Shown here one piece after another: positions 1 through 10,950 of a stretch of 34,174 bases of DNA. Origin of the DNA: Bacteroidaceae bacterium (GTDB lineage: Bacteria; Bacteroidota; Bacteroidia; Bacteroidales; Bacteroidaceae). Position 1 is the first letter of the stretch; every line of letters starts with the position of its first letter. The notes below the pieces were generated by a model. The model did no database searches, had not been told where the DNA came from, and worked only from the letters and a program-made list of their open reading frames with translations. Made by a program: the position numbers and the translations under genes. The stretch covers positions 1 to 34,174 of the forward strand of contig JAGCMB010000047.1 of NCBI GenBank assembly GCA_017646665.1, given 5' to 3'.

Positions 1-116
1 ACGGGAATTCTCTTTCGTATGTGGTTCTGTTGTGCAAAGACAGTACTGCAGATGCACAGCAGAAGAGATATTGCAAAATATCTCAATATGTATATAATAT
101 TACTCTTCTGTTGCAT
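1..116 (-). CDS. Secreted protein, N-terminal part only (runs off the left edge)
   Basis: An ATG at 116 opens a minus-strand frame that stays open to the window edge, 38 codons. It begins MQQKSNII, then has a hydrophobic stretch (IL.YFAISLLLCICSTVFA) ending in AQQ, a good signal peptide with cleavage after FA. The start lies inside the last codons of the RHS-type gene, so the two overlap by 17 nt in different frames, which suggests translational coupling in one operon. The product cannot be named from this fragment. By position it may be the next RHS-family protein, such as the core-bearing part missing from its neighbour, but that is inference. The length is too short for composition evidence; the signal peptide and the overlap are the support. 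Confidence 0.6.
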   Translation of the reverse strand, partial: MQQKSNIIYILRYFAISLLLCICSTVFAQQNHIRKRIP

Positions 117-3100
117 AATGGTACTCTATTTGCTCAATAATGTTTTCTGCGTCACCATCTACTTCTATTACTTGATGCAGGCGATTGAACTCATCGTATG
201 TGTAACGGGTCTCTACTCCACGTGCATCGGTCTGTGATATCATACCAACGAGCGGCTCGTATCTGTTTACTGTAACTTGTGCATTCGGCAATTTGCAGCG
301 CAATTTATGCAATTTTTCCCAATCTTCATCGACAGGCAAAAATTTTTCGGCCAATTCATCGACATTGATGCCACAATTGATAACTTCCTGTAGGGTCGCG
401 TTGTTTATTTGTGCTACAATGTGCTGGTTATTATAGCTCCAAAGAAGTACTACACGACGGCCACCACGGCTAATGAGTTCTGTCGGCTGCCCTTTGGCGG
501 TGTAGCTGTTATATGTCACATCGGCAGTAGTGGAACTGTCCATCGAAAGCGTTACTGGGTTTTTGTCCAAGCCTTGGTTTCCTATAAAACTATATTCTTT
601 ATACGGCTTAACTATTGTAGAGTTGTGATGGGTCTTTACAATGGCCTTTTCCAATGTATTGCCGGTATAATATTTTTCCATTAGAGGGACTGTTTTTAAT
701 TGGCTGTCTTTGAACGTACCACCTAAATATGAGGGGTAGTCTACAGAGTATGAATATTCAATTCTCTTTGTAGGGTGCCCTGTTGCATAAATCCTTGCTG
801 TTTTCAACTTGAAGATTGAATCGTGATAAGTGTATTTGAAACTCTTGACATTCTCATCCTCTTTAATACTCATACTGTCGAGGTATGTATAAAAATTCTT
901 AACATAGTAACATCTTGAGTAATTTGCATCACCTATTTTCAGACATTTTATTTTTTCAGTGGAAATAGTATCGTATTTGTATATGATATCTTTTTGAGGA
1001 ATTTCATTGTAGAACTGAACATGCCTTGTCATAGTCCCATTCAATGGATTATGCGTGCCTTGATCATTGTAATCATAATAATCAGTCTCTGGTTTGTTAA
1101 AGAATGTGTGTAATTCCGTAATACTATCTCCTGAGCAAAGTGTCGTACTATATACTTTTGAATAACCAATATGATTACCGTTATATGGATTATAAGCACT
1201 ACGAGTTGTAAATGAATTAAACGCAACTGTATAAAAAACAGCATTTACAATATTAAGCCCGGCACAATATGTGTAAAAATAACAAATTGTGGGATGCGAA
1301 TGCCTCGGTTCTCTTAATAGCAAGCCAGTGCTATACCCATTTTCTGCATAAAAATAGTTGATAGTAGAGAGAGGGGATTTTATTTGGGAAATCCTCACAC
1401 CTCCGACAATATCTTTTTTAAGAGCCGTTTCTATTTTTTGTATTGATACGTTAATATATACCTGTGCGTTTCTGATAGACTCCAATTTGAGGGTAAAAGT
1501 GTCCAAATACGCGTTTTGATTTATAAGCCCTTCAAGAGTAAATGTTTTTTTTATACTATCTCCATTCGTTTCGGTAATTGTACTTTGTGGATAAGAGAAG
1601 CATCTTATATACCCTGGCAGTGTATATATTCCAATCTTGTTGTTTGTGTTATTAAAAACTTTATTTTCTTGGTATTCTAATTTAATACGGTATGCATAAT
1701 TATTATCAATTTCTACAGGGATTTTTAAAATTGTATCACTGGAAATATTGTTTATTGTAAAGTCCTGCATCTTCGTTGAGGTATATACAGTATCAAGTTT
1801 TGTTGTGTATATATCATTACAATCATATTTAAAACGAGTTGATGCTCCAGTTGGAGTTGTTAGTCCTGTCAATATCCAAGTTTTTGCAGCAGTATCAGGT
1901 TTTGGATCATATTCATCTTGATAGTAATATGTTTGACCCTTTGGAACTACAATTTTGGTTTTGTCAATAGATATTCCACCGGTTGCACTGCTGTCTGTTT
2001 TATAAGCATACCAATTGTCTGTAATTGTACAAGGATAGAATGATTCCTTTTTGAAATTGTTTGTTGTGTAAAACCCCCATTTGTCAGTGAAATGGTCATT
2101 TTTTAGTGGCAGATTATTGCTCATATCATATTCCATCGTGTATTTTTGTGCGTTATTAATAGTGATAGAATCCAAACGTAACCTTGCTGCCAGATAATTT
2201 GTTGTGTCGTATACCACTTCTTGATTATATCTGTATTTCCCAACAAAATATGAATGGTGTAGTTTGTATGAAAGAATGGGTGAGTCGCCATATATAGGGT
2301 ATATGTTAATATATTCAAGTGCCCTATTTTCACTTGGCACACGCCTACCTTTTTCATATCCGGTTATGTCAAATCTCTCATTTAAATTTCTTTTAAATTC
2401 AATAGTTCCTTGATTCCATGTAATTGAATTTAAAATATATTCGCTCTTGTTCAAATCCATACTCCAATAACGTCTGTCTTTTGGTTTGCACTCATCCTTG
2501 GATATGATTGGATCGAAAAAGAAATATTGTTCTTCCAATATCTTGTATTTTGTATAAGATTCATAAGCAGGGCTTAGGTATGAATTTGTCAGCATTACGT
2601 AGTTGAATTGTATGGAATTTCCATTTGGAAGGATAATCTTACTTAACAACCAACTTGTGACTGTCGCAGGATATGAAAAATTTGTTTCATCATATGGAAC
2701 ATAATCGCTGTCGTAGCCGAGGGTTTCACTACCTTGTTTCTCATCTTCAAAACACATATTACAAGTCGCTCTTTGTTCTATGTCATTAAAAATGAACTTT
2801 GTATTGTCTTCTGCAGTGATTGTAAAACAATTGTCACATCCTTCTATGCGTAAATTGTCTTCTGGATTAAGCAACATAAATCTGCTTTCATCTTCTCTCT
2901 CATATTCGCCTTTACGCACGATGAATTTACCGGAATATCCGGCAAAGTTATAGTGATAAATATCTGATTCTGTGTCAAGTTCAGAGTTGCTGATATTATC
3001 TGTCTCTACTAATGGAGACTCGTAGTGGTCTGGAAAATCATCTGAACACATATAAAATCCGAATTCATCAAAATCATCTCTTCCCTGTATTGTCCTGCTT

Positions 3101-3498
3101 ATACAGCCACCGGCATGTAAACTCCATCCAAGTCCTACACGACTTGCTTCTTGCGCGACTTTTATCCCGGAGGCATGGTATCTTAGTGAAATTGGCAAAC
3201 TAAAATTGCCGACATTTATGGTATAAATGGGTATTGAAATGTCGGGAATACCAGTGTATAGCGATACCGGGATATCTGAGTATTGCATTAAAGCATGAGA
3301 TTCCGGTGATGGAGCATGGTCTTTGAAAATTTCATTTGCACCGCTGTGAACAGAAGCTTTTGCCGGCAAAGTTAAAGTGTCTGATAATATGCATTTACTC
3401 TCTTGCTTGACAGATAGCATAGACTCCTCATTAAGAATCTGTGCATTTGAAAGCAATGCTGTAAAAACAAAAAGTAATGATAATGTTGTTTTATTCAT
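100..3498 (-). CDS. Secreted RHS/YD-repeat family protein, N-terminal portion only
   Basis: 1132 residues with a signal peptide (MNKTTLSLLFVFTALLSNAQ). Around residues 75-130 it has the entry region typical of Bacteroidota RHS/SpvB-like shells (PVSLYTGIPDISIPIYTI, ISLRYHASGIKVAQEASRVG, LGWSLHAGG). The middle is a long beta-rich region with no recognised domain. A single clear YD-type repeat sits in the last 45 residues (TDARGVETRYTYDEFNRLHQV), and the protein stops 25 residues later at YHYATEE. There is no RHS-associated core and no C-terminal toxin-like tip, so this is only the front half of a usual RHS shell. It overlaps the upstream gene by 8 nt and the downstream one by 17 nt. Family assignment is good; the role (surface adhesin, polymorphic-toxin scaffold or other) is open. 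Confidence 0.85.
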   Translation of the reverse strand: MNKTTLSLLFVFTALLSNAQILNEESMLSVKQESKCILSDTLTLPAKASVHSGANEIFKDHAPSPESHALMQYSDIPVSLYTGIPDISIPIYTINVGNFSLPISLRYHASGIKVAQEASRVGLGWSLHAGGCISRTIQGRDDFDEFGFYMCSDDFPDHYESPLVETDNISNSELDTESDIYHYNFAGYSGKFIVRKGEYEREDESRFMLLNPEDNLRIEGCDNCFTITAEDNTKFIFNDIEQRATCNMCFEDEKQGSETLGYDSDYVPYDETNFSYPATVTSWLLSKIILPNGNSIQFNYVMLTNSYLSPAYESYTKYKILEEQYFFFDPIISKDECKPKDRRYWSMDLNKSEYILNSITWNQGTIEFKRNLNERFDITGYEKGRRVPSENRALEYINIYPIYGDSPILSYKLHHSYFVGKYRYNQEVVYDTTNYLAARLRLDSITINNAQKYTMEYDMSNNLPLKNDHFTDKWGFYTTNNFKKESFYPCTITDNWYAYKTDSSATGGISIDKTKIVVPKGQTYYYQDEYDPKPDTAAKTWILTGLTTPTGASTRFKYDCNDIYTTKLDTVYTSTKMQDFTINNISSDTILKIPVEIDNNYAYRIKLEYQENKVFNNTNNKIGIYTLPGYIRCFSYPQSTITETNGDSIKKTFTLEGLINQNAYLDTFTLKLESIRNAQVYINVSIQKIETALKKDIVGGVRISQIKSPLSTINYFYAENGYSTGLLLREPRHSHPTICYFYTYCAGLNIVNAVFYTVAFNSFTTRSAYNPYNGNHIGYSKVYSTTLCSGDSITELHTFFNKPETDYYDYNDQGTHNPLNGTMTRHVQFYNEIPQKDIIYKYDTISTEKIKCLKIGDANYSRCYYVKNFYTYLDSMSIKEDENVKSFKYTYHDSIFKLKTARIYATGHPTKRIEYSYSVDYPSYLGGTFKDSQLKTVPLMEKYYTGNTLEKAIVKTHHNSTIVKPYKEYSFIGNQGLDKNPVTLSMDSSTTADVTYNSYTAKGQPTELISRGGRRVVLLWSYNNQHIVAQINNATLQEVINCGINVDELAEKFLPVDEDWEKLHKLRCKLPNAQVTVNRYEPLVGMISQTDARGVETRYTYDEFNRLHQVIEVDGDAENIIEQIEYHYATEE

Positions 3499-4630
3499 TT
3501 AGGTTGTCCTCCATATATATTTTTTTACAAACCACCTTATTTTCATAGCTAACGATAAGCAGGTATGTCCCTTGTTGCAAATCGGTCAGGTCAAAAGTTG
3601 TTTTTATCGGATGGCCTTCTAATGTTTTTAAGTGTACATTCTCGAACGCTATACCACCAATACTTGCCAATGCGATGGAAATATCAAGATTCCTGTCTGT
3701 CATTAGCTCAATGGCTAATGTATTATGATTATCCTGGTGACAACTCAGTCTTATATCATCGTCACCAATTTCTGAAATCCCGGTATTGCAAAGCGTGTTT
3801 TCTTGTGTAAAAAGATTTACATGACGAAGTGTGTCGGATTTATTTATCGTAATAGTTTTTTTCTTTTGCCCGTAAATTGGGTAGTAATATGAGTTTGTAC
3901 TATGTAATGTCTTTTTGCCATCCTTTAGCAGATATGTAATTGTTGTCTCTATTATGGAATGTTTGTAGTCGGGGATATACCAATTATAGTTCTCTATAAT
4001 CCAGGTTAATGAATCTTGCTTTAATCTATCGTATATTGATGAATTGGGGCTATGTATATCATCATAAATCTTGGTATCCGGTGTGAGAATCTGTCCAATA
4101 TGCTTTCTCTTTAACGTTCGGTATGCACCGTACCTCACGCTGTCTCCCGGCAAGACTATTGAGCCGTATGAATCAATAGAATAGGCTGTTTCACCGTACA
4201 CGTGCAAATTCAAAGTGTTGGAATATATTCCTTCGCCATATATATTCGAAATGGCTGCAGAGCCGAATTGTAAACCATTAATCTTATGGATTTCCGGCTT
4301 TAAGTATTTCAGTTTTGTATTTTTGGTATTATAGCCAATGCAATAAAGAGTGTCCCCGGAATTTTTATAGTAGTTGTAACAGAATGGGGTTATCTCTACT
4401 GTTATGGAATCGTTTTGTGCGATATATTCATCTATATGCTCCTCGTCATAGATGCACAGCTCTCCAAAATCCCAAAACTTATTCTCACCGGTTTCACCCG
4501 GATGCGCAAATTCAATAGTTTTCCGAATGATTGTTTCACTGTTATTTAGCATTGCACTTTGGGATTGTGGAGAAACGGCAATGTTGCTTAAAGTGAAAAA
4601 CAAGAAAAATAAAAAACAACGATATCTCAT
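3491..4630 (-). CDS. Secreted protein with type IX sorting-like C-terminal tail
   Basis: The start chosen is the ATG at 4630, whose product begins MRYRCFLFFLFFTLSN, a hydrophobic signal peptide; a longer frame from a TTG at 4660 only adds residues ahead of it. The product is about 379 residues. The body has no domain I recognise and is rich in Tyr, Ser, Thr and Asn, as extracellular proteins of this group are. The last 60 residues (IALASIGGIAFENVHLKTL, then FDLTDLQQGTYLLIVSYE and VVCKKIYME) follow the pattern of the type A type IX secretion sorting domain: a GTYLL turn, then a final KK-containing strand. A DUF3244-like sandwich is a less likely reading. The stop overlaps the next gene's start by 8 nt. 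Confidence 0.75.
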   Translation of the reverse strand: MRYRCFLFFLFFTLSNIAVSPQSQSAMLNNSETIIRKTIEFAHPGETGENKFWDFGELCIYDEEHIDEYIAQNDSITVEITPFCYNYYKNSGDTLYCIGYNTKNTKLKYLKPEIHKINGLQFGSAAISNIYGEGIYSNTLNLHVYGETAYSIDSYGSIVLPGDSVRYGAYRTLKRKHIGQILTPDTKIYDDIHSPNSSIYDRLKQDSLTWIIENYNWYIPDYKHSIIETTITYLLKDGKKTLHSTNSYYYPIYGQKKKTITINKSDTLRHVNLFTQENTLCNTGISEIGDDDIRLSCHQDNHNTLAIELMTDRNLDISIALASIGGIAFENVHLKTLEGHPIKTTFDLTDLQQGTYLLIVSYENKVVCKKIYMEDNLNE

Positions 4631-4710
4631 AAACAAGCATTTTGTTATTGTAAACCCCAATATACACTATAAAATTGACATACACATATCCTCATATAAC
4701 GGCTACTCAT

Positions 4711-5142
4711 TTACTCAATTTCAAACTCTCCTTGGAAGCAGCTGCCGCCAAAATCAAAGACTATCTTATAAGAACCGACCGGCAGCAGTGGCAGCCACAA
4801 TTCAACATCACAACCTTTTGGAAGAGCAATTTCGCTTTGCTGCTGAACAGAACCTGATTCGTCCACAATGTAATATGTAACCGTTTCAAATGTTACATAA
4901 GGGCTCGTTACTGTAAATCGGGCATCTGCTGCATTGTAGAACACTGTTGGCAGGATGGAATATATATCCAAATCCCTCTCAGGTATACCTATTCTATCAA
5001 TATCAATGTCAATATCAATATCACCATCACCTTCTAACTTTTCCAAAACAACTTGTTTTGTTTCATCTGACTGTGCGTAAAGGAAGCTACTCGAGGATAA
5101 TAGAAATAAACACAAAAATACTTTGTTGACAATTTTTTCCAT
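4711..5142 (-). CDS. DUF3244-type secreted small protein with Asp-Ile repeat
   Basis: 143 residues: a signal peptide (MEKIVNKVFLCLFLLSSSSFLYAQ), an acidic repeat DGDIDIDIDIDR at about residues 38-49, then a short beta-sandwich ending LPVGSYKIVFDFGGSCFQGEFEIE. The final GSYKI...GxFEIE pattern, the size and the signal peptide match the DUF3244 proteins of Bacteroides, which are of unknown function and exported. It is the first gene of the minus-strand operon. A consensus promoter (5170-5200) lies just upstream, and an operator-like repeat stands immediately behind that. The gap to the next gene is 80 nt, the only real gap in the operon. The family call is by pattern and was not searched. Confidence 0.75.
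   Translation of the reverse strand: MEKIVNKVFLCLFLLSSSSFLYAQSDETKQVVLEKLEGDGDIDIDIDIDRIGIPERDLDIYSILPTVFYNAADARFTVTSPYVTFETVTYYIVDESGSVQQQSEIALPKGCDVELWLPLLPVGSYKIVFDFGGSCFQGEFEIE
4996..5031. repeat. Hexamer-type tandem repeat encoding Asp-Ile
   Basis: On the minus strand GAT/GAC and ATT codons alternate (GAT ATT GAT ATT GAC ATT GAT ATT GAT), preceded by GGT GAT. The unit is six bases, so slippage would change the number of Asp-Ile pairs without shifting the frame. It lies inside the DUF3244-type gene. Confidence 0.7.
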
Positions 5143-5169
5143 ATTTTTTAAATTTTGTTTAAACTATTA

Positions 5170-5200
5170 CAAAAATATCGGCTATAAAGTATTCTCCAAA
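5170..5200 (-). promoter_or_regulatory. Bacteroidales-type promoter for the DUF3244 operon
   Basis: Read on the minus strand: TTTG (5200-5197), a 19-base spacer, then TATTTTTG (5177-5170). This matches the Bacteroides consensus of TTTG at -33 and TAnnTTTG at -7 with the preferred spacing. Transcription would start near 5163, about 20 nt before the ATG at 5142. Confidence 0.75.
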
Positions 5201-5208
5201 GAAACCCG

Positions 5209-5225
5209 TGTCCAAACCTGTCCAA
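5209..5225 (-). promoter_or_regulatory. Operator-like direct repeat upstream of the DUF3244 operon
   Basis: On the minus strand this reads TTGGACA GGT TTGGACA: two exact 7-base copies, 10 bp (one helical turn) apart. It ends 8 bp behind the -33 box, the usual place for an activator. A matching site in mirror orientation lies at 5310-5326. The neighbouring TPR-HTH regulator is the natural candidate to bind it; that link is inference. Confidence 0.6.
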
Positions 5226-5309
5226 CTTTTGTTACATAGTCCATAACGCACTAACAGTCAATATATTAAAATCAAGCGCCAATCTTTTTATTATCATTTT
5301 TTTGGCATA

Positions 5310-5326
5310 ATAGACAAGATTGGACA
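5310..5326 (+). promoter_or_regulatory. Operator-like direct repeat upstream of the TPR-HTH regulator
   Basis: Reads ATAGACA AGA TTGGACA on the plus strand, so one half-site is exact and the other is 5 of 7. It has the same 10-bp period as the site at 5209-5225 and the same orientation relative to its own gene. Its edge is 32 bp from the first base of the -7-like TATTTTAG at 5358, exactly as in the opposite promoter. Confidence 0.55.
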
Positions 5327-5357
5327 AGAAGTCGCAATACAACTCGTTTTTTTACAT

Positions 5358-5365
5358 TATTTTAG
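5358..5365 (+). promoter_or_regulatory. Probable -7 box for the TPR-HTH regulator gene
   Basis: TATTTTAG differs from TAnnTTTG at one base. No good TTTG stands at the -33 position, which would fit a promoter that depends on an activator bound at 5310-5326. The start codon follows 29 nt after the box, against 27 nt on the opposite side. Confidence 0.45.
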
Positions 5366-5394
5366 CATACACAGAACAATAGAGAAAAAACACT

Positions 5395-7125
5395 ATGAGA
5401 TATTTTATTCGGATATTACTGTTTTCATCGGCACTTTTTGCAGCGTGCAGCAAACAGGAAAACGAAGTTCTATTAAAAGAGTTGAACGACATAAAGGCTA
5501 TGGGCGATACATTGCCACAAGCTGCAATGCGAAGACTCGATTCCATAAAACCGCAGTTCGACAACGAAACGGAATATATGCGCAACAAACTGGCTTTGCT
5601 TGAAATAAGGCTACAGGACAAAGCGTATATTACCCACAGAACAGACAAACAGATAAAGAACATCTGCCGTTTTTTTGAGAAAAACGGTACAAGCGTTGAC
5701 AAACAGGAGGCCTATTATTATATGGGCAGTGTGTATCGCGACCTTAATGACTACCCGAATGCAGTGACATTTTTTCTGAAATCAGCAGCCATTGCAGAAG
5801 AAACGTCTAATGCAGATGTTGCATTATGGGGAAATTCTTATTCACAATTATCCCATTTGTATAGAACACAATTAAATTACACCGAGGCTTTAGATGTCGC
5901 ACTTAAACGACTTGAAGTTGCAGAACGTAATGACAATGCCAATAATAGGACATATATGACTATTGCAAGCTGTTACTCTAAATTAAACGATACCATAAAT
6001 TCCGTAAAGTTCTATAACCTAATTATAAATAATTTAAACAATGCAGTTATTGATAGAAAAAATGCAGATATAATCGCAACAGCAATGGGAGATTACGCAC
6101 TATATGGATATAAAGACGAAGCTACACATTGCTATGAATTACTAAACAGGCTCAACAAAAAAGAACGCCCATTCAACTATCTATCAAACCTATCTGTCTA
6201 TTACGAATGTTTCGTATCAATTGACAGCGCAGCAGGTGCCAGGTTAGAACTTTATAACACAACTTCACGAATTGAATCGAAATATGATGCTTCGCAATGG
6301 TTGACAAGGTATTATGCTTCCATTAAGGATTATGAAAAAGCTACAGAATTTGCCATAAAATTCATTGATGCAAATTTGGCGGTAAACAACAAAAGAAACC
6401 TTGAGCACACTACGAATGCAAAGAATTTCTTCCAATACAGGCGCGACAAGGAAGAGGAGACAAGGGTGATGCAGAATGCCGCTAAAGACAGGTATAACCT
6501 TGTAATTGGGGTTTCAATATCAATAATAGTGCTATTAGGAACTGTTACGCTGCATTATAGACGGAAAAAACGTTTGCTCGACATTATCCTCAACAAGGAA
6601 AAGAATATTGAAAGTGCAAAGGTGTTGGTAGAAAAAAGAGAGATTGAACTTGAGAATGAGAAAAGGTGCATTGAAGAGAAAGAAAAAGAATTGAGGAAAC
6701 TGAACGCTGCCAATTCAAGGCTATCAAAAGAGTTGCAAAATGCAAAGGAAGATTTCGATATGCTTGTTGCGCAGAACTGCGAGTTGACGAAGCAGACCAT
6801 TATGAGCAATATGGCCAAGAGCAATGGCGATATCATTGAAAAGGTTAAAAAGACATCCAAAGGCAAATACCACCTGAGCAACAACGAGTGGAAGGAGTTG
6901 CTTGGCGCCATTGACAAACTATACCCCGAGTTCACTCACGAGGTACAGGCCAAGTTCAAGAAAATCAACGAGCCGCTGCTGCGTGTATGCTATCTTTTGA
7001 AAATAGGGTTGACCGGCCCGGAGATTGCGAATATAACGGATTACCCGCGCCAGACTGTCTGGGTCAGGATTAAAAAAGTTAAGGAGACAATCAAGCTGGG
7101 ACCTACTTTTTCTCAAAAAAACTGA
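5395..7125 (+). CDS. Membrane-anchored TPR / coiled-coil / HTH transcriptional regulator
   Basis: 576 residues. The N-terminus is a lipoprotein-like signal (ALFAAC, Cys18). Residues 100-350 are helical TPR-like repeats (AYYYMGSVYRDLNDYPNAVT, LSHLYRTQLNYTEALDVAL). One membrane segment lies at about 367-386 (LVIGVSISIIVLLGTVTL), followed by a long charged coiled coil (about 395-470). The C-terminal 90 residues end in a helix-turn-helix-like region (LKIGLTGPEIANITDYPRQTVWVRIKKV). This resembles the DUF6377-like regulators of Bacteroides, with a sensor outside and a DNA-binding part inside. It diverges from the secreted-protein operon and probably controls it through the repeats at 5209-5225 and 5310-5326. 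Its 3' end overlaps convergent rsmD by 23 bp. Architecture is clear; the target genes and the signal are inferred. Confidence 0.8.
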   Translation: MRYFIRILLFSSALFAACSKQENEVLLKELNDIKAMGDTLPQAAMRRLDSIKPQFDNETEYMRNKLALLEIRLQDKAYITHRTDKQIKNICRFFEKNGTSVDKQEAYYYMGSVYRDLNDYPNAVTFFLKSAAIAEETSNADVALWGNSYSQLSHLYRTQLNYTEALDVALKRLEVAERNDNANNRTYMTIASCYSKLNDTINSVKFYNLIINNLNNAVIDRKNADIIATAMGDYALYGYKDEATHCYELLNRLNKKERPFNYLSNLSVYYECFVSIDSAAGARLELYNTTSRIESKYDASQWLTRYYASIKDYEKATEFAIKFIDANLAVNNKRNLEHTTNAKNFFQYRRDKEEETRVMQNAAKDRYNLVIGVSISIIVLLGTVTLHYRRKKRLLDIILNKEKNIESAKVLVEKREIELENEKRCIEEKEKELRKLNAANSRLSKELQNAKEDFDMLVAQNCELTKQTIMSNMAKSNGDIIEKVKKTSKGKYHLSNNEWKELLGAIDKLYPEFTHEVQAKFKKINEPLLRVCYLLKIGLTGPEIANITDYPRQTVWVRIKKVKETIKLGPTFSQKN

Positions 7126-7639
7126 AGTTCACACTACCGTATGCCACGTGCCTGAAGAAATTGGGATGCGCGCTAAAATCGTAATCCTTTCCGTGTTCAA
7201 AAACAAGAATGCCGCCATTCTTGAGCAGACCGCCTTCAAGTACAAGGTCGGGAATAGTCTTGAGCTCCTTGAGCGCGTATGGAGGGTCGGCAAAGACAAG
7301 GTCATAAGCCGCAGGACTGCGACGTATATAGCGGAAGACATCGTCACGAACAACACACCAGGCACTGTCGCCCAAGAGTGCGGCAGTCTTCTTAAGGTGT
7401 GCCGCATGCATGGCATCCATCTCAACTGATGTGACAGCCTTGCAACCGCGCGAAAGGAATTCAAGGCTAATGCTGCCTGTTCCGGCAAAGAAATCAAGTA
7501 CCGACATATCTTCAAAATCCACTATATTGGCAAGGATATTGAAAAGGTTCTCTTTGGCAAAATCGGTTGTAGGACGTGCCTTGAAATTACGTGGCACATC
7601 AAAATGACGGCCTTTATATTTACCACTTATTATTCGCAT
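7103..7639 (-). CDS. rsmD: 16S rRNA (guanine-N2)-methyltransferase RsmD
   Basis: 178 residues, the usual RsmD length. It starts MRIISGKYKGR, has the SAM-binding motif VLDFFAGTGSISLE (47-60) and the catalytic DPPY motif (118-121, FADPPYALKEL). RsmD methylates G966 (E. coli numbering) of 16S rRNA in the small subunit, using S-adenosylmethionine, in the cytoplasm. The ATG at 7639 overlaps the stop of the DUF3822 gene by 10 nt, so the two are translationally coupled. At the other end the gene overlaps the convergent regulator by 23 bp, so no intergenic terminator separates them. Confidence 0.95.
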   Translation of the reverse strand: MRIISGKYKGRHFDVPRNFKARPTTDFAKENLFNILANIVDFEDMSVLDFFAGTGSISLEFLSRGCKAVTSVEMDAMHAAHLKKTAALLGDSAWCVVRDDVFRYIRRSPAAYDLVFADPPYALKELKTIPDLVLEGGLLKNGGILVFEHGKDYDFSAHPNFFRHVAYGSVNFSFFEKK

Positions 7640-8433
7640 AGTATCAATGACTGTAGATCGAAAGGAATACCTTCCATCTTGTTCAACAATGTCAACGGGA
7701 ACAATTCGTTTGCATTCATACGCTTACACCTCTTTATAAAGCGACCGATTGCCATCATATTAAGTTCGACACCCTTATCGCCACACAAATATAGTGTATC
7801 ATCCTCCTGTGACAACCCCTGCTCCTTCCAAATATTCAACAAATAGTATATGCTGTCGTGGCCACCCTCGCACCTGAACGCGTTTGCAAGCCTCATCTTT
7901 CCGTCCTGCATTGAAATAAAGAATGAGAGGTCGCCTTGGAAATATGCAAGCATATATCTCTCTTCTGTAGCCGGCTTGCTTGTCATCAAACCCAACAGTA
8001 TACTGAGAGTAGAATAGAATGTAACATCCCCTAGTTTCTGAAAACCCTCATACAAAGACTTCTCGACAGGAAACAGGACTGTCAGTCCTTGTGCATCAAG
8101 CCTATTTGCAACAACCTCGACACGAGCAACATTCTTTGGAAAACAAAGACGATAAAAAGTCTTGTAATCCTGTTTATTGTCGTATTCTACAGGGATGGTC
8201 GTAAAATCCTCAGTTTCGACAATAACCTTCACATCATACTTCTCGCCCTGCATGACAAACGGACACTGTTCAACACCGTGTTGCAGGTTCATTGTGAGTG
8301 TCAATCCTTTCTCGGGCTTGTAGAAGAAGTATTTGAGTGAATCGGGAAGCGATGGCGTATAGCTGCAAAAACAAAATCCATCCGTACTGATACGAATGGA
8401 TAATGTTTTATTCTGAATGTTATCCTTTGTCAT
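7630..8433 (-). CDS. DUF3822 family protein
   Basis: The ATG at 8433 (MTKDNIQNKTLSIRIS) was chosen because the family usually starts just before the NKTLSIRIS strand, and it leaves a 4-nt gap after the upstream stop; an ATG at 8457 would add 8 residues and overlap that gene by 20 nt. The product is 267 residues. DUF3822 is a Bacteroidota family of unknown function regularly placed beside rsmD; from memory, a structural-genomics member showed an actin-like ATPase fold (not checked). Visible pieces are STDGFCFCSY near the start, YMLAYFQGDLSFFI in the middle and LYLCGDKG near the end, consistent with the alternating strands of such a fold. It is in an operon with its neighbours. Confidence 0.8.
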   Translation of the reverse strand: MTKDNIQNKTLSIRISTDGFCFCSYTPSLPDSLKYFFYKPEKGLTLTMNLQHGVEQCPFVMQGEKYDVKVIVETEDFTTIPVEYDNKQDYKTFYRLCFPKNVARVEVVANRLDAQGLTVLFPVEKSLYEGFQKLGDVTFYSTLSILLGLMTSKPATEERYMLAYFQGDLSFFISMQDGKMRLANAFRCEGGHDSIYYLLNIWKEQGLSQEDDTLYLCGDKGVELNMMAIGRFIKRCKRMNANELFPLTLLNKMEGIPFDLQSLILCE

Positions 8434-8437
8434 TCTA

Positions 8438-9379
8438 TTAGGGCCAGTTTCCGGCATTATTGTTATTCTTGGTTACATCACCAACCTTGCGGCAAGGAAT
8501 AAGTCTTTTAAGAACACCATTTGCACCCATCAAAGGCTCGCCATTCTTGTCCACGCGGATTTCCTCTCTATACTCAGTACCATTGGTTATTACCTGCAAG
8601 AGATAGTTGTTGAGTTCCTGCTCGTTCAAGCCCTTGAGATAGAGGGCGAAATCGGCACGTGCCTCAAATACCTGAATGTAACCACCGGCCTTGCGGTTTG
8701 CTTGAGCATTAGGCTGAATACTGTCGGCCTTCATCCAGAACTCGATTGGCTTACCGACACTATCCTGGCTGAATGGGATATATCTCAACTGCTGGATATC
8801 GTATGATGGATTGTGATACAAAGTATCAACGTATGCAAGACGGGTTGTATCGCGATGGAAAGACTTTGCAATCATTGTTGTATCAACGAAAGCCTTGCGA
8901 CCAGCCTCAGCGTCCTCTACCCAAATTGTATCACGACGATATAGAGCATCGAGTTTCTCAATTCTCTTGGCATTCTTCTGCTGATTCTTCTTGTTGGTAT
9001 CGTTGAGGATGTTCAAGACAATCTGGTCTGCCTCGTCCTCACTGAATGCCATTTCATCGGCATTCTTTGGTTTTGTGTCCTCGACCTTGAAATCTCTTAC
9101 CAAAGCCAACTGCTTGTCGTTGAGGATATAGGTCTTATTCACAACCTTCATACTGTCATCAAGGAAAGAAATCAATTCGTCAAAAGTAGCTGCATATCTG
9201 CCATTTTGAGCACGATATTCCACCTGAGCTGTTCTAATGTCAATAAGGCGTTCGATGACCACCTTGTCACGCTCCAATCGCTGCTTGTCAAAATCTAGTG
9301 GCGCATTTACGCTGCTGAAGTTTGCATAAACAAGCGCAATGACAAGAACAAGCAAAACCACATTTAATACTTTTTTCAT
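8438..9379 (-). CDS. Conserved membrane-anchored protein with pilin-like N-terminus
   Basis: 313 residues. One N-terminal hydrophobic helix (residues 4-20, VLNVVLLVLVIALVYANF) is followed by a long helix and RTAQVEYRAQNGRYAATFDE, which recalls the region after the first helix of type IV pilins and pseudopilins (repeated Tyr, then GRYA and a TFDEL turn). The rest is charged, with no catalytic motif seen. It is the first gene of the operon with DUF3822 and rsmD. A -7 box TATTTTTG lies on the minus strand at 9421-9414, without a clear -33 partner. The pilin resemblance covers only the N-terminal third, and no prepilin peptidase site is obvious, so function is unknown. Confidence 0.75.
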   Translation of the reverse strand: MKKVLNVVLLVLVIALVYANFSSVNAPLDFDKQRLERDKVVIERLIDIRTAQVEYRAQNGRYAATFDELISFLDDSMKVVNKTYILNDKQLALVRDFKVEDTKPKNADEMAFSEDEADQIVLNILNDTNKKNQQKNAKRIEKLDALYRRDTIWVEDAEAGRKAFVDTTMIAKSFHRDTTRLAYVDTLYHNPSYDIQQLRYIPFSQDSVGKPIEFWMKADSIQPNAQANRKAGGYIQVFEARADFALYLKGLNEQELNNYLLQVITNGTEYREEIRVDKNGEPLMGANGVLKRLIPCRKVGDVTKNNNNAGNWP

Positions 9380-9528
9380 TGTTATATCTTTTTATTTAAT
9401 TATTTTCGTGTCACAAAAATAAGATAAAAAAACGAATATACATTATTTTATATAACTTTTTTACAATTGGGGTGCTGTTTATATTTATATCACGGCACTT
9501 TACACGTACAACGTAACCATTTTACTAA

Positions 9529-10950
9529 GTGATAAACAGATATTTAGCATCGCAAATAAAGTCAAATTTTCCATTCACTCCAACGATTGAACAGGAAAAA
9601 ACCATAGAGAGGCTGGCGGATTTCATTCTTTCGGGTGACGACCGCAAAGTCTTTCTGCTCTGCGGATATGCCGGAACAGGAAAGACATCACTTATTTCGG
9701 CACTTGTACGCACAATGGAACAACTCGACAGAAAGACCGTCCTGCTTGCCCCGACAGGTAGAGCCGCAAAGGTATTTACATCATATTCGGGGAAAGGAGC
9801 ACACACCATACACAAATGCATCTACCGCCAAAAATCCATTATGGACAACTCGGTGTTTACGCTCACCGAAAACAGAGCACAGAACACCCTTTTCATTGTG
9901 GATGAGGCTTCTATGATTTCAAACGAGAGCAACGCAATGACCTGTTCCAACGGTTTGCTCGACGACCTTATAGAATTTGTCTATTCCGGACGCGGCTGTT
10001 CAATGCTATTGCTTGGCGACACAGCCCAGCTACCCCCAGTCGGCGAATTCCAATCCCCGGCACTTACCGAGAGTTACCTGCGTTCAATGTTCTTGAATGT
10101 AACATCCATTGAGCTGAAACAGGTTATGCGCCAGCTCGACGACTCCGGCATTCTCTACAACGCCACAATGCTACGCAATAAGATAGAGGATGAGGACACA
10201 TACGATTTGCCTATCATCAAACTGAATGGGTTTCCCGACATTTGCAATGTACAGGGCGACGAACTTATCGAGGCGATTGAAACCTGTTACAATAAAACCG
10301 GCATTGATGAAACCATAATTCTTTGCCGTTCGAACAAACGCGCAAATGTCTACAACGAAGGCATACGCCGCCGCATCCTATACCGCGAGGAAGAACTAAG
10401 CCGTGGAGATATGCTTATGATTGTCAAGAACAACTACTATTGGCGCGAAGTTCTTGGAAAGGAAGACAAGACACTGTTGGAGAAACTCGATTTCATTGCC
10501 AACGGCGATATTGCAGAGATTATACGTGTTCACGGCACGGAGGAGATGTATGGATTCCGTTTCGCCGATGTAACTCTGTCATTGATAGATTATGAGGATT
10601 GCGAAATAGATGTAAAGATTATGCTCAACACCCTCACAAGCGAATCGCCGTCACTCACAAAAGAAGAAAACGAACGGCTTTTCAATGCCGTGTGGGAAGA
10701 TTACCCCGAGATACGTTCAAAGCGAAAACGAATGGAGGAGATACGCAAAAACCCATACTACAATGCGCTGCAAGTAAAATATGGTTACGCTGTCACCTGT
10801 CACAAAGCACAAGGCGGTGAATGGAAACGTGTTTTCATAGACCAAGGTTACATTACCGAAGATATGATTTCACCCGACTACTACCGCTGGTTATACACAG
10901 CATTCACACGGGCAAGCGAAAAATTATACCTCGTAAATTGGAAAGTCTGA
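9529..10950 (+). CDS. RecD-like ATP-dependent DNA helicase (AAA family)
   Basis: 473 residues from a GTG start; no ATG occurs before the Walker A motif, so GTG is the best choice. Superfamily 1 helicase motifs run in order: Walker A GYAGTGKTS (46-54), APTGRAA, Walker B FIVDEAS (122-128), motif III LLLGDTAQLPPVG, then motif V/VI in a UvrD C-terminal type domain (VTCHKAQGGEWKRVFID and LYTAFTRASEKLYLVNW). It is shorter than E. coli RecD and has no nuclease domain. Single-gene RecD-like helicases like this are common in Bacteroidales and probably act in replication or recombination repair. It stands divergent to the pilin-like gene and ends at a strong hairpin. Confidence 0.9.
   Translation: MINRYLASQIKSNFPFTPTIEQEKTIERLADFILSGDDRKVFLLCGYAGTGKTSLISALVRTMEQLDRKTVLLAPTGRAAKVFTSYSGKGAHTIHKCIYRQKSIMDNSVFTLTENRAQNTLFIVDEASMISNESNAMTCSNGLLDDLIEFVYSGRGCSMLLLGDTAQLPPVGEFQSPALTESYLRSMFLNVTSIELKQVMRQLDDSGILYNATMLRNKIEDEDTYDLPIIKLNGFPDICNVQGDELIEAIETCYNKTGIDETIILCRSNKRANVYNEGIRRRILYREEELSRGDMLMIVKNNYYWREVLGKEDKTLLEKLDFIANGDIAEIIRVHGTEEMYGFRFADVTLSLIDYEDCEIDVKIMLNTLTSESPSLTKEENERLFNAVWEDYPEIRSKRKRMEEIRKNPYYNALQVKYGYAVTCHKAQGGEWKRVFIDQGYITEDMISPDYYRWLYTAFTRASEKLYLVNWKV

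Follow-up and report, generated by a model that had tools for sequence, protein, structure and literature searches.

Mirrored direct-repeat operators in a divergent promoter pair of a gut Bacteroidaceae bacterium, and their probable control by the adjacent membrane-spanning regulator

The locus and its genes

The DNA analysed here (the window) is a stretch of 34,174 nucleotides that covers the whole of its contig (34,174 bases); the parent genome is incomplete (2.1 Mb, 92% complete). In it, 252 bp of intergenic DNA separates a regulator gene on the plus strand (5395-7125) from a three-gene operon on the minus strand. The genes and the control elements between them are listed below.

100..3498, minus strand: divergent operon gene 3; 1132 aa, one RHS repeat near the C-terminus
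3491..4660, minus strand: divergent operon gene 2; no Pfam family found
4711..5142, minus strand: divergent operon gene 1; small secreted DUF3244-like protein, 143 aa
5170..5177, minus strand: operon -7 box TATTTTTG (TAnnTTTG); 31 nt past the operator, 27 nt to the ATG at 5142
5197..5200, minus strand: operon -33 element TTTG; 19 nt before the -7 box (sigma-ABfr consensus from PMC7366714)
5209..5225, minus strand: operon operator TTGGACA-GGT-TTGGACA; two heptamers with a 10 bp period, checked base by base and with counterparts in homologous loci
5310..5326, plus strand: regulator operator ATAGACA-AGA-TTGGACA; first copy degenerate, 10 bp period, counterparts in homologous loci
5358..5365, plus strand: regulator-gene -7 box TATTTTAG; 5 of 6 consensus positions, 31 nt past the operator, 29 nt to the ATG at 5395
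5395..7125, plus strand: regulator gene; 576 aa, TPR, membrane helix and C-terminal HTH

The sole Pfam RHS repeat of the RHS-type protein (100-3498) occupies residues 1087-1116 of 1132, at the extreme C-terminus. Only 99 bases of contig lie beyond this gene, so that whatever gene follows it cannot be seen.

The regulator begins with a hydrophobic stretch and a lipobox-like Cys18, which is invariant in 13 of 13 aligned proteins. A TPR region (105-177 in Pfam TPR_12) is followed by a single hydrophobic, membrane-type helix near 366-388, then by RRKKR and a charged linker, and the C-terminal HTH carries R552 and V557 in its presumed recognition helix. Judged by this layout, the TPR part should be periplasmic and the HTH cytoplasmic. 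The assignment of the HTH fold by profile is only suggestive: HTH_23 matches 10 of 15 members (best 1.8e-6); the best solved-structure matches are weak ones to the response regulator VraR (E 0.07 and 0.11), with unrelated phosphotransferases also at 0.11; and the 25 Pfam families that the HTH profile comparison listed at E <= 10 include no GerE family.

In two relatives the regulator gene is broken (L074 8001-9727, with L002 and L018; and L084, with L017 and L021); both keep the operators and the divergent DUF3244-like gene.

Operators and promoters in the window

An earlier reading, made from the letters of this DNA alone (the sequence-only reading), had described in the direction of each gene two heptamers, a spacer of 31 nt and a -7 box. 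The coordinates bear this out base by base on both strands, as they do the 10 bp period of each operator and the gaps of 27 and 29 nt from box to ATG. The consensus given at that time, (A/T)T(A/T)GGACA, is literally absent; it was too generous because the first plus heptamer is ATAGACA, which holds no GGACA word. One of the four half-sites in the window is poor, and the plus operator is a match to the pattern only at two mismatches.

Promoters of the Bacteroides sigma-ABfr type carry TAnnTTTG at -7 and TTTG near -33 (PMC7366714). The minus promoter, TTTG-N19-TATTTTTG, has both elements, although its -33 TTTG (5200->5197) went unmentioned in the sequence-only reading. At the usual -33 position of the plus promoter TTTG is absent. 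Compared with the published type (PMC7366714), the operon has an ordinary sigma-ABfr core promoter to which a putative activator site is added, whereas the regulator promoter lacks the -33 TTTG.

The arrangement compared with chance

The word TTGGACA alone occurs in the window about as often as chance predicts (7 occurrences against 5.92 expected); it is the arrangement that is enriched. Dinucleotide shuffling of the window's own 330 nt reached the four-word mirrored score at a lag of 10 in 3 of 1500 cases, and in the window alone lags 11 and 14 nearly equal lag 10 (35 versus 36). The arrangement in the window is moderately beyond chance.

Related loci were scanned without reference to any particular word. 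Of 43 regulator loci examined three were too short; among the 40 scored, 10 bp was the best lag in 31, a tally that includes one tie with lag 15 (L003); in L057 and L094 the top lag-10 match is not operator-like. Mirrored scores of at least 39 were found in 16 of 40 loci as against 0 of 1600 shuffles, and scores of at least 35 in 28 of 40 as against 16 of 1600. Control upstream regions from the same contigs (n = 225) had no preference for lag 10 (it was best in 28, lag 9 in 31 and lag 12 in 29). Eleven of them reached 35; six are the same divergent regions taken from the other gene and five belong to other genes. Across related loci the mirrored lag-10 arrangement is clearly beyond chance.

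Conservation of repeats and spacing

Relatives of the regulator occur in 14 of 44 genomes of the genus (E <= 1e-20, the window's genome included). Outside the family they are few: an order-wide search, in which only three candidates per genome were scored, found them in 4 of 393 genomes including that of the window (E <= 1e-50). Named loci with relatives come mostly from metagenome assemblies of Bacteroidaceae, Bacteroidales or Prevotella, and 14 of 22 carry ruminant sample names.

The sequence-only reading had proposed conservation of the repeats and of the 31-base spacing in homologous loci as its check. Both are kept, and the identity of the regulators in these loci to that of the window spans about 25 to 97%. 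The mirrored 10-bp direct repeats persist while the word itself varies (TTGGACA, TCGGACA, TCGGATA, TGGGAGT and TTGAAAC). On the operon side the distance from operator end to -7 box is 31 nt in all 21 accepted operators; the boxes fit 6 of 6 consensus positions in 20 cases and 5 of 6 in one, and TTTG lies 7-8 nt past the operator in 16 of these 21 promoters. The regulator side is looser. There, 14 of 21 accepted operators have the 31 nt spacing (two of the 14 tie with another offset); of the seven exceptions two are at 30, one at 32, two at 41 (one turn further) and two have no box, and TTTG is found 7-8 nt past the operator in just 1 of 21. A later locus search gave 31 nt on 16 of 17 operon sides and 13 of 14 regulator sides.

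The spacing count omits L078 and the plus hit of L018, where the masked scan picked the wrong place (by eye the L018 plus site is TCAGACA-CAT-TCGTACA), and it admits four loci that fell short of the score limit of 7 (L001, L004, L010 and L088). L003, L011 and L018 have no accepted plus operator; L004, L008 and L072 have no accepted minus operator.

Another 20 loci belong mostly to a subgroup with an RW recognition helix. In them the distance from the end of a T.G.AAC window to the box is mainly 31-33 for the operon and mainly 32 or 42-44 for the regulator; a clear site was not found in four of the 20 (L062, L067, L092 and L128).

A conserved distance between the two operators was considered and rejected, since the gap ranges from 44 to 103 bp in close-clade loci with both operators placed (L004 and L011 were not measurable). 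The exact symmetry claimed in the sequence-only reading holds within each half, from operator to box. With a variable distance between them, the two operators look like separate units and not like a single symmetric element.

Operator word and recognition helix

The variation of the word among loci allows it to be set against the HTH of the neighbouring regulator. Half-sites were located by a scan in which word positions 2, 6 and 7 were masked; the resulting set comprises 76 half-sites from 23 loci with a score of at least 7 of 8 (L078, a near copy of L015, was omitted). Two associations stand out. Residue 557 goes with word position 2, V, F or Y occurring with T, D with C and N with G (70 of 76 half-sites), and residue 552 goes with position 6, R or K occurring with C, P with T and I with G (73 of 76). 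Permutation of labels equalled neither in 10000 trials (0/10000 for both). With a looser score limit of 6 the fits are 79 of 88 and 84 of 88, respectively. Crossed pairings also beat most permutations (552 with position 2 and 557 with position 6 were equalled in 8 and 15 of 10000); they carry 0.59 bits of information compared to 1.27 and 1.18 for the proposed pairings.

Exceptions exist: L072 has D and yet T, L011 is mixed, L007 and L016 each contain one T half-site, L020 one G, L021 two T at position 6 and L054 one C. L175, with R at 552, gave only a weak match. S at 557, which the rule does not cover, occurs with C in one locus, and M at 552 is mixed (C, T or G).

Because relatedness inflates counts of covariation, a tree was built without the HTH. 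On this tree three sister pairs differ by V/D at residue 557 and all three switch T/C at position 2 (L001/L002, support 100/100; L003/L017, 100/100; L008/L010, 91/95), while in four sister pairs without the V/D change the base is kept. One of the three pairs consists of the window and its closest relative, and here the switch is sharpest: the window has V and TTGGACA, and the relative in L074/L018 has D and TCGGACA, although in the best aligned segment the two regulators share 97% identity.

Both rules, and the grouping of residues, were initially derived from the data themselves. They were then fixed, and retested on 20 further loci with a QT helix, 19 of which had an accepted site. N occurred with G in 60 of 60 half-sites, K with C in 14 of 14 and I with G in 37 of 40. 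These loci come from the genus of G356, the source of some training loci, and residue 557 is nearly always N, so that the retest does not bear on V, D or P. Apparent near copies among the loci analysed (L058/L060, L153/L055 and L167/L168) inflate counts somewhat. The 20 derive from 55 new loci, four of which were omitted as copies of earlier ones; of the remaining 51, nine gave no usable open frame even under a looser open-frame rule, applied after the first count, which rescued nine others, one of which (L184) had a QT helix. The remaining new loci have other helices or short upstream sequence, and one matched place, G855, falls outside the set. In a single background, the usual word is TGGGAG where the helix reads A-K-I-QTVWN, and TGGGAC where it reads A-K-K-QTVWN.

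In the RW subgroup a third residue covaries with the word: T at 553 occurs with G in 15 of 18 half-sites (5 loci), and V or A with A in 27 of 28 (8 loci). Ten further loci with V or A at 553 had A in 34 of 40 half-sites and G in none. If the one-base difference in distance in this subgroup is taken as register, then R557 would face G at position 2, and R552 would still go with C at position 6. The order 557-2, 553-3, 552-6 would then be collinear, with the qualification that some loci stand at 33 and not at 32.

The sequence-only reading had named the TPR-HTH neighbour as regulator from its proximity. That the operator word covaries with the recognition-helix residues of this protein strongly supports it as the binder.

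Private words within a genome

The only exact operator match in the window's own genome is the minus operator itself, and the pattern search found no match with one mismatch. At two mismatches there are 21 matches (the plus operator and 19 others among them), compared to 39 for a reversed control pattern. A degenerate second site elsewhere is conceivable, given that matches at this level are fewer than for the control and that the genome is 92% complete.

Genomes with several paralogous loci are informative in another way. The three loci of G004 have TTGGACA, TCGGACA and TTGGATG; in G032 one locus combines TTAGACA with TTGGACA, and the second has mostly TCGGACA together with a single TTGGACA half-site. 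Base choice appears to depend on a small number of recognition-helix residues, so that words tend to be private to their loci. Such insulation is not universal, for two loci of G021 partly share TCGGACA.

Interpretation

The explanation that we consider very probable is a divergent promoter pair controlled, through activation, by the adjacent membrane-spanning regulator, whose own promoter is among its targets. The claim of the sequence-only reading that one regulator serves both promoters, its own included, very probably stands: conserved operators, conserved spacing and covariation carry it, and activation is read from the position of the operators. Binding of the neighbouring regulator to both operators is well supported by the way in which the word changes with its recognition helix; that it activates both promoters we infer from where the operators lie.

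The most likely sequence of events is as follows. A signal would be sensed by the periplasmic TPR part and the change relayed through the membrane helix and linker. Two copies of the HTH would then sit side by side on near-identical words, one helical turn apart and just upstream of -33, each recognition helix reading its word through contacts of 557 with position 2 and 552 with position 6 (and, in the related subgroup, of 553 with the base between). Bound in this way, the pair would bring in RNA polymerase, with the distance to the -7 box strictly fixed. One such unit would drive the DUF3244/RHS operon; the second, a weaker mirror image, would drive the regulator, and the positive autoregulation expected of it would make the locus switch-like. 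A rigid spacing beside an otherwise ordinary core promoter is what an activator in contact with polymerase would require. Side-by-side binding, topology, sensing by the TPR part and cargo as output are all steps suggested by this layout.

An unlikely alternative is that the same protein binds both operators as a repressor and is released when its periplasmic part senses a signal. Autoregulated divergent pairs are, in general, common among repressors, and covariation of word and helix is equally compatible with repression and activation. The geometry is what separates the two: the operators lie upstream of -33 and leave the core promoter uncovered, and a distance to -7 that is exact to the base on 21 of 21 operon sides suits contact with polymerase and would be needless for repression. 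Of the seven regulator-side operators that depart from 31 nt two sit one turn further (41 nt), and the regulator promoter has TTTG at 7-8 nt in just 1 of 21 loci, as dependence on an activator predicts.

The window alone contains nothing against a second alternative, in which the repeats are bound by some other regulator that acts genome-wide and has the TPR-HTH gene as just one target among others. This we regard as very improbable, because the word differs among paralogous loci within one genome (G004 and G032) and tracks the local helix; nor does the window's genome contain another match below two mismatches. That the repeats are chance matches in AT-rich intergenic DNA is less credible still. 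It would be consistent with the chance-level frequency of TTGGACA and with the near equality of lags 11 and 14 to lag 10 in the window (35 versus 36). Against it stand the rarity of equal scores among shuffles (3 of 1500 for the window, and 0 of 1600 at a score reached by 16 of 40 loci), the fixed spacing, the covariation, and the conservation found in homologous loci.

Returning to activation by the neighbouring protein, we tentatively suggest a broader possibility, to which we give somewhat less than even weight: that such proteins form an undescribed, Bacteroidaceae-centred family of membrane-anchored activators with a collinear helix code (557-2, 553-3, 552-6) that reads two words one turn apart, 31 nt from -7, and that their paralogues run largely insulated, private switches for their own secreted or surface cassettes, some perhaps tuned by the C tract described below. 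The comparisons, made from sequence alone, supply an operator, a promoter geometry and the start of a DNA-reading code for an uncharacterised class of Bacteroidota membrane regulators. Natural single-residue switches are available for testing the code, and the insulation of paralogous membrane regulators within one genome is directly testable. Operators of further members should be predictable and secreted cassettes (RHS, proteases, peptide-maturation genes) assignable to regulators; orthogonal switches might be selected for work with gut Bacteroides.

Relation to known systems

A membrane one-component regulator with a divergent autoregulated operon and a direct-repeat activator site is a kind already known. 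We found no description in open-access papers of this regulator, of the operator geometry or of the residue-base code.

SusR-like regulators are membrane regulators of Bacteroidota with a periplasmic sensor and a C-terminal HTH said to be unlike other known DNA-binding domains; their predicted sites are direct repeats, and the similarity of operators tracks that of the regulators (PMC3878776). The comparison with them made here rests on these published features (PMC3878776). Their sites are 67 or 77 bp apart, in contrast to 10 bp here, and three of five in B. thetaiotaomicron stand beside susC/susD (PMC3878776), whereas here a DUF3244-like gene and variable cargo occupy that place. The susC and susD Pfam families are absent among the eight proteins scanned (E <= 0.001, 103 to 10947).

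The nearest published cluster is B. thetaiotaomicron BT_3442-BT_3433, in which the cargo is MACPF lipoproteins; the text available describes BT_3442 as a TPR protein that belongs to a single putative operon and might act as an interaction partner, and not as a regulator (PMC2954219). The likeness lies in a TPR protein beside a small immunoglobulin-like protein (BT_3441), followed by secreted cargo (PMC2954219). Of nine proteins distantly related to the window's regulator, three match NF053779 at E <= 1e-5 (one over 4-566 at 4e-19) with scores of 45-71 bits, compared to a cut-off of 940 bits; for the window's regulator no match to NF053779 was found at E <= 1 (cut-off 940 bits). The HTH tail of the BT_3442 family differs from that of the window's regulator. 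The profile for the DUF3244-like proteins of the window's group missed 3d33, the solved relative of BT_3441, at E <= 1, so that this comparison does not join the two small proteins into one family. Loci of the BT3442 family had been expected to share the operator. This was rejected: 0 of 11 reach 35 at lag 10, which is the best lag in one locus (L150, at 32; L148 was omitted as partial). The mirrored operator thus appears confined to a subset of these TPR proteins.

SARP activators such as AfsR bind direct repeats that are spaced by one helical turn and lie at a fixed distance from the promoter element, with two copies of the activator side by side, and AfsR has a TPR region, as does the window's regulator (PMC10936776). 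They differ in the spacing of the repeats (11 or 22 bp, against 10 bp here), in the distance to the promoter element (8 bp from -10, against 31 nt here), and in their OmpR-type DNA-binding domain and Streptomyces origin (PMC10936776). SARP activators are not known to be membrane-anchored.

Covariation of amino acids and bases has been described for GntR-family divergons, with Asp-C, Arg-G and Asn-A as frequent predicted contacts (PMC4494728). Asp-C and Arg-G fit the present case (D occurs with C; R552 also occurs with C, whose partner on the opposite strand is G), unlike Asn-A, since Asn goes with G here; GntR is, however, another family, with palindromic sites (PMC4494728).

Genes under probable control and a C tract

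In 12 of 18 compared loci (two of the 12 are near copies) the divergent side begins with a DUF3244-like gene. The window's protein itself scores below the curated cut-off for PF11589 (14.9 of 25 bits, E 0.028); among 11 aligned homologues, 10 give a match to this family at E <= 10, the best of them at 9.1e-7. The cargo that follows varies and includes an RHS-type protein, a C10 protease with inhibitor domain, a papain-like protease and an O-antigen ligase. In L075 (4322-5866) it is a C10-family peptidase with a Spi-type inhibitor domain; in L083/L078 (L083 3734-7198) a C39-VKOR-thioredoxin protein, a LanC-like protein and a glycosyltransferase together resemble a peptide-maturation cluster.

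With 18 distant or BT3442-type loci set aside beforehand, 45 regulator upstream regions were compared, and seven of them have a run of 6-11 C between the operators (L003, L007, L015/L083, L078, L064, L065 and L125); the window's own upstream region has no C run. The background is 15 runs in 343,430 bases, some being these same runs. In the four cases measured, two of them near copies, the run starts exactly 17 nt behind the operon-side operator. Two near-identical loci (99.9% over 11,184 bp) differ by five substitutions and two indels, one of which is 7 versus 11 C, and we regard the tract as a candidate slippage-prone spacer. L078 was binned as Oscillospiraceae; being 99.9% identical over 11 kb to the Bacteroidales contig L083, it is probably a binning error.
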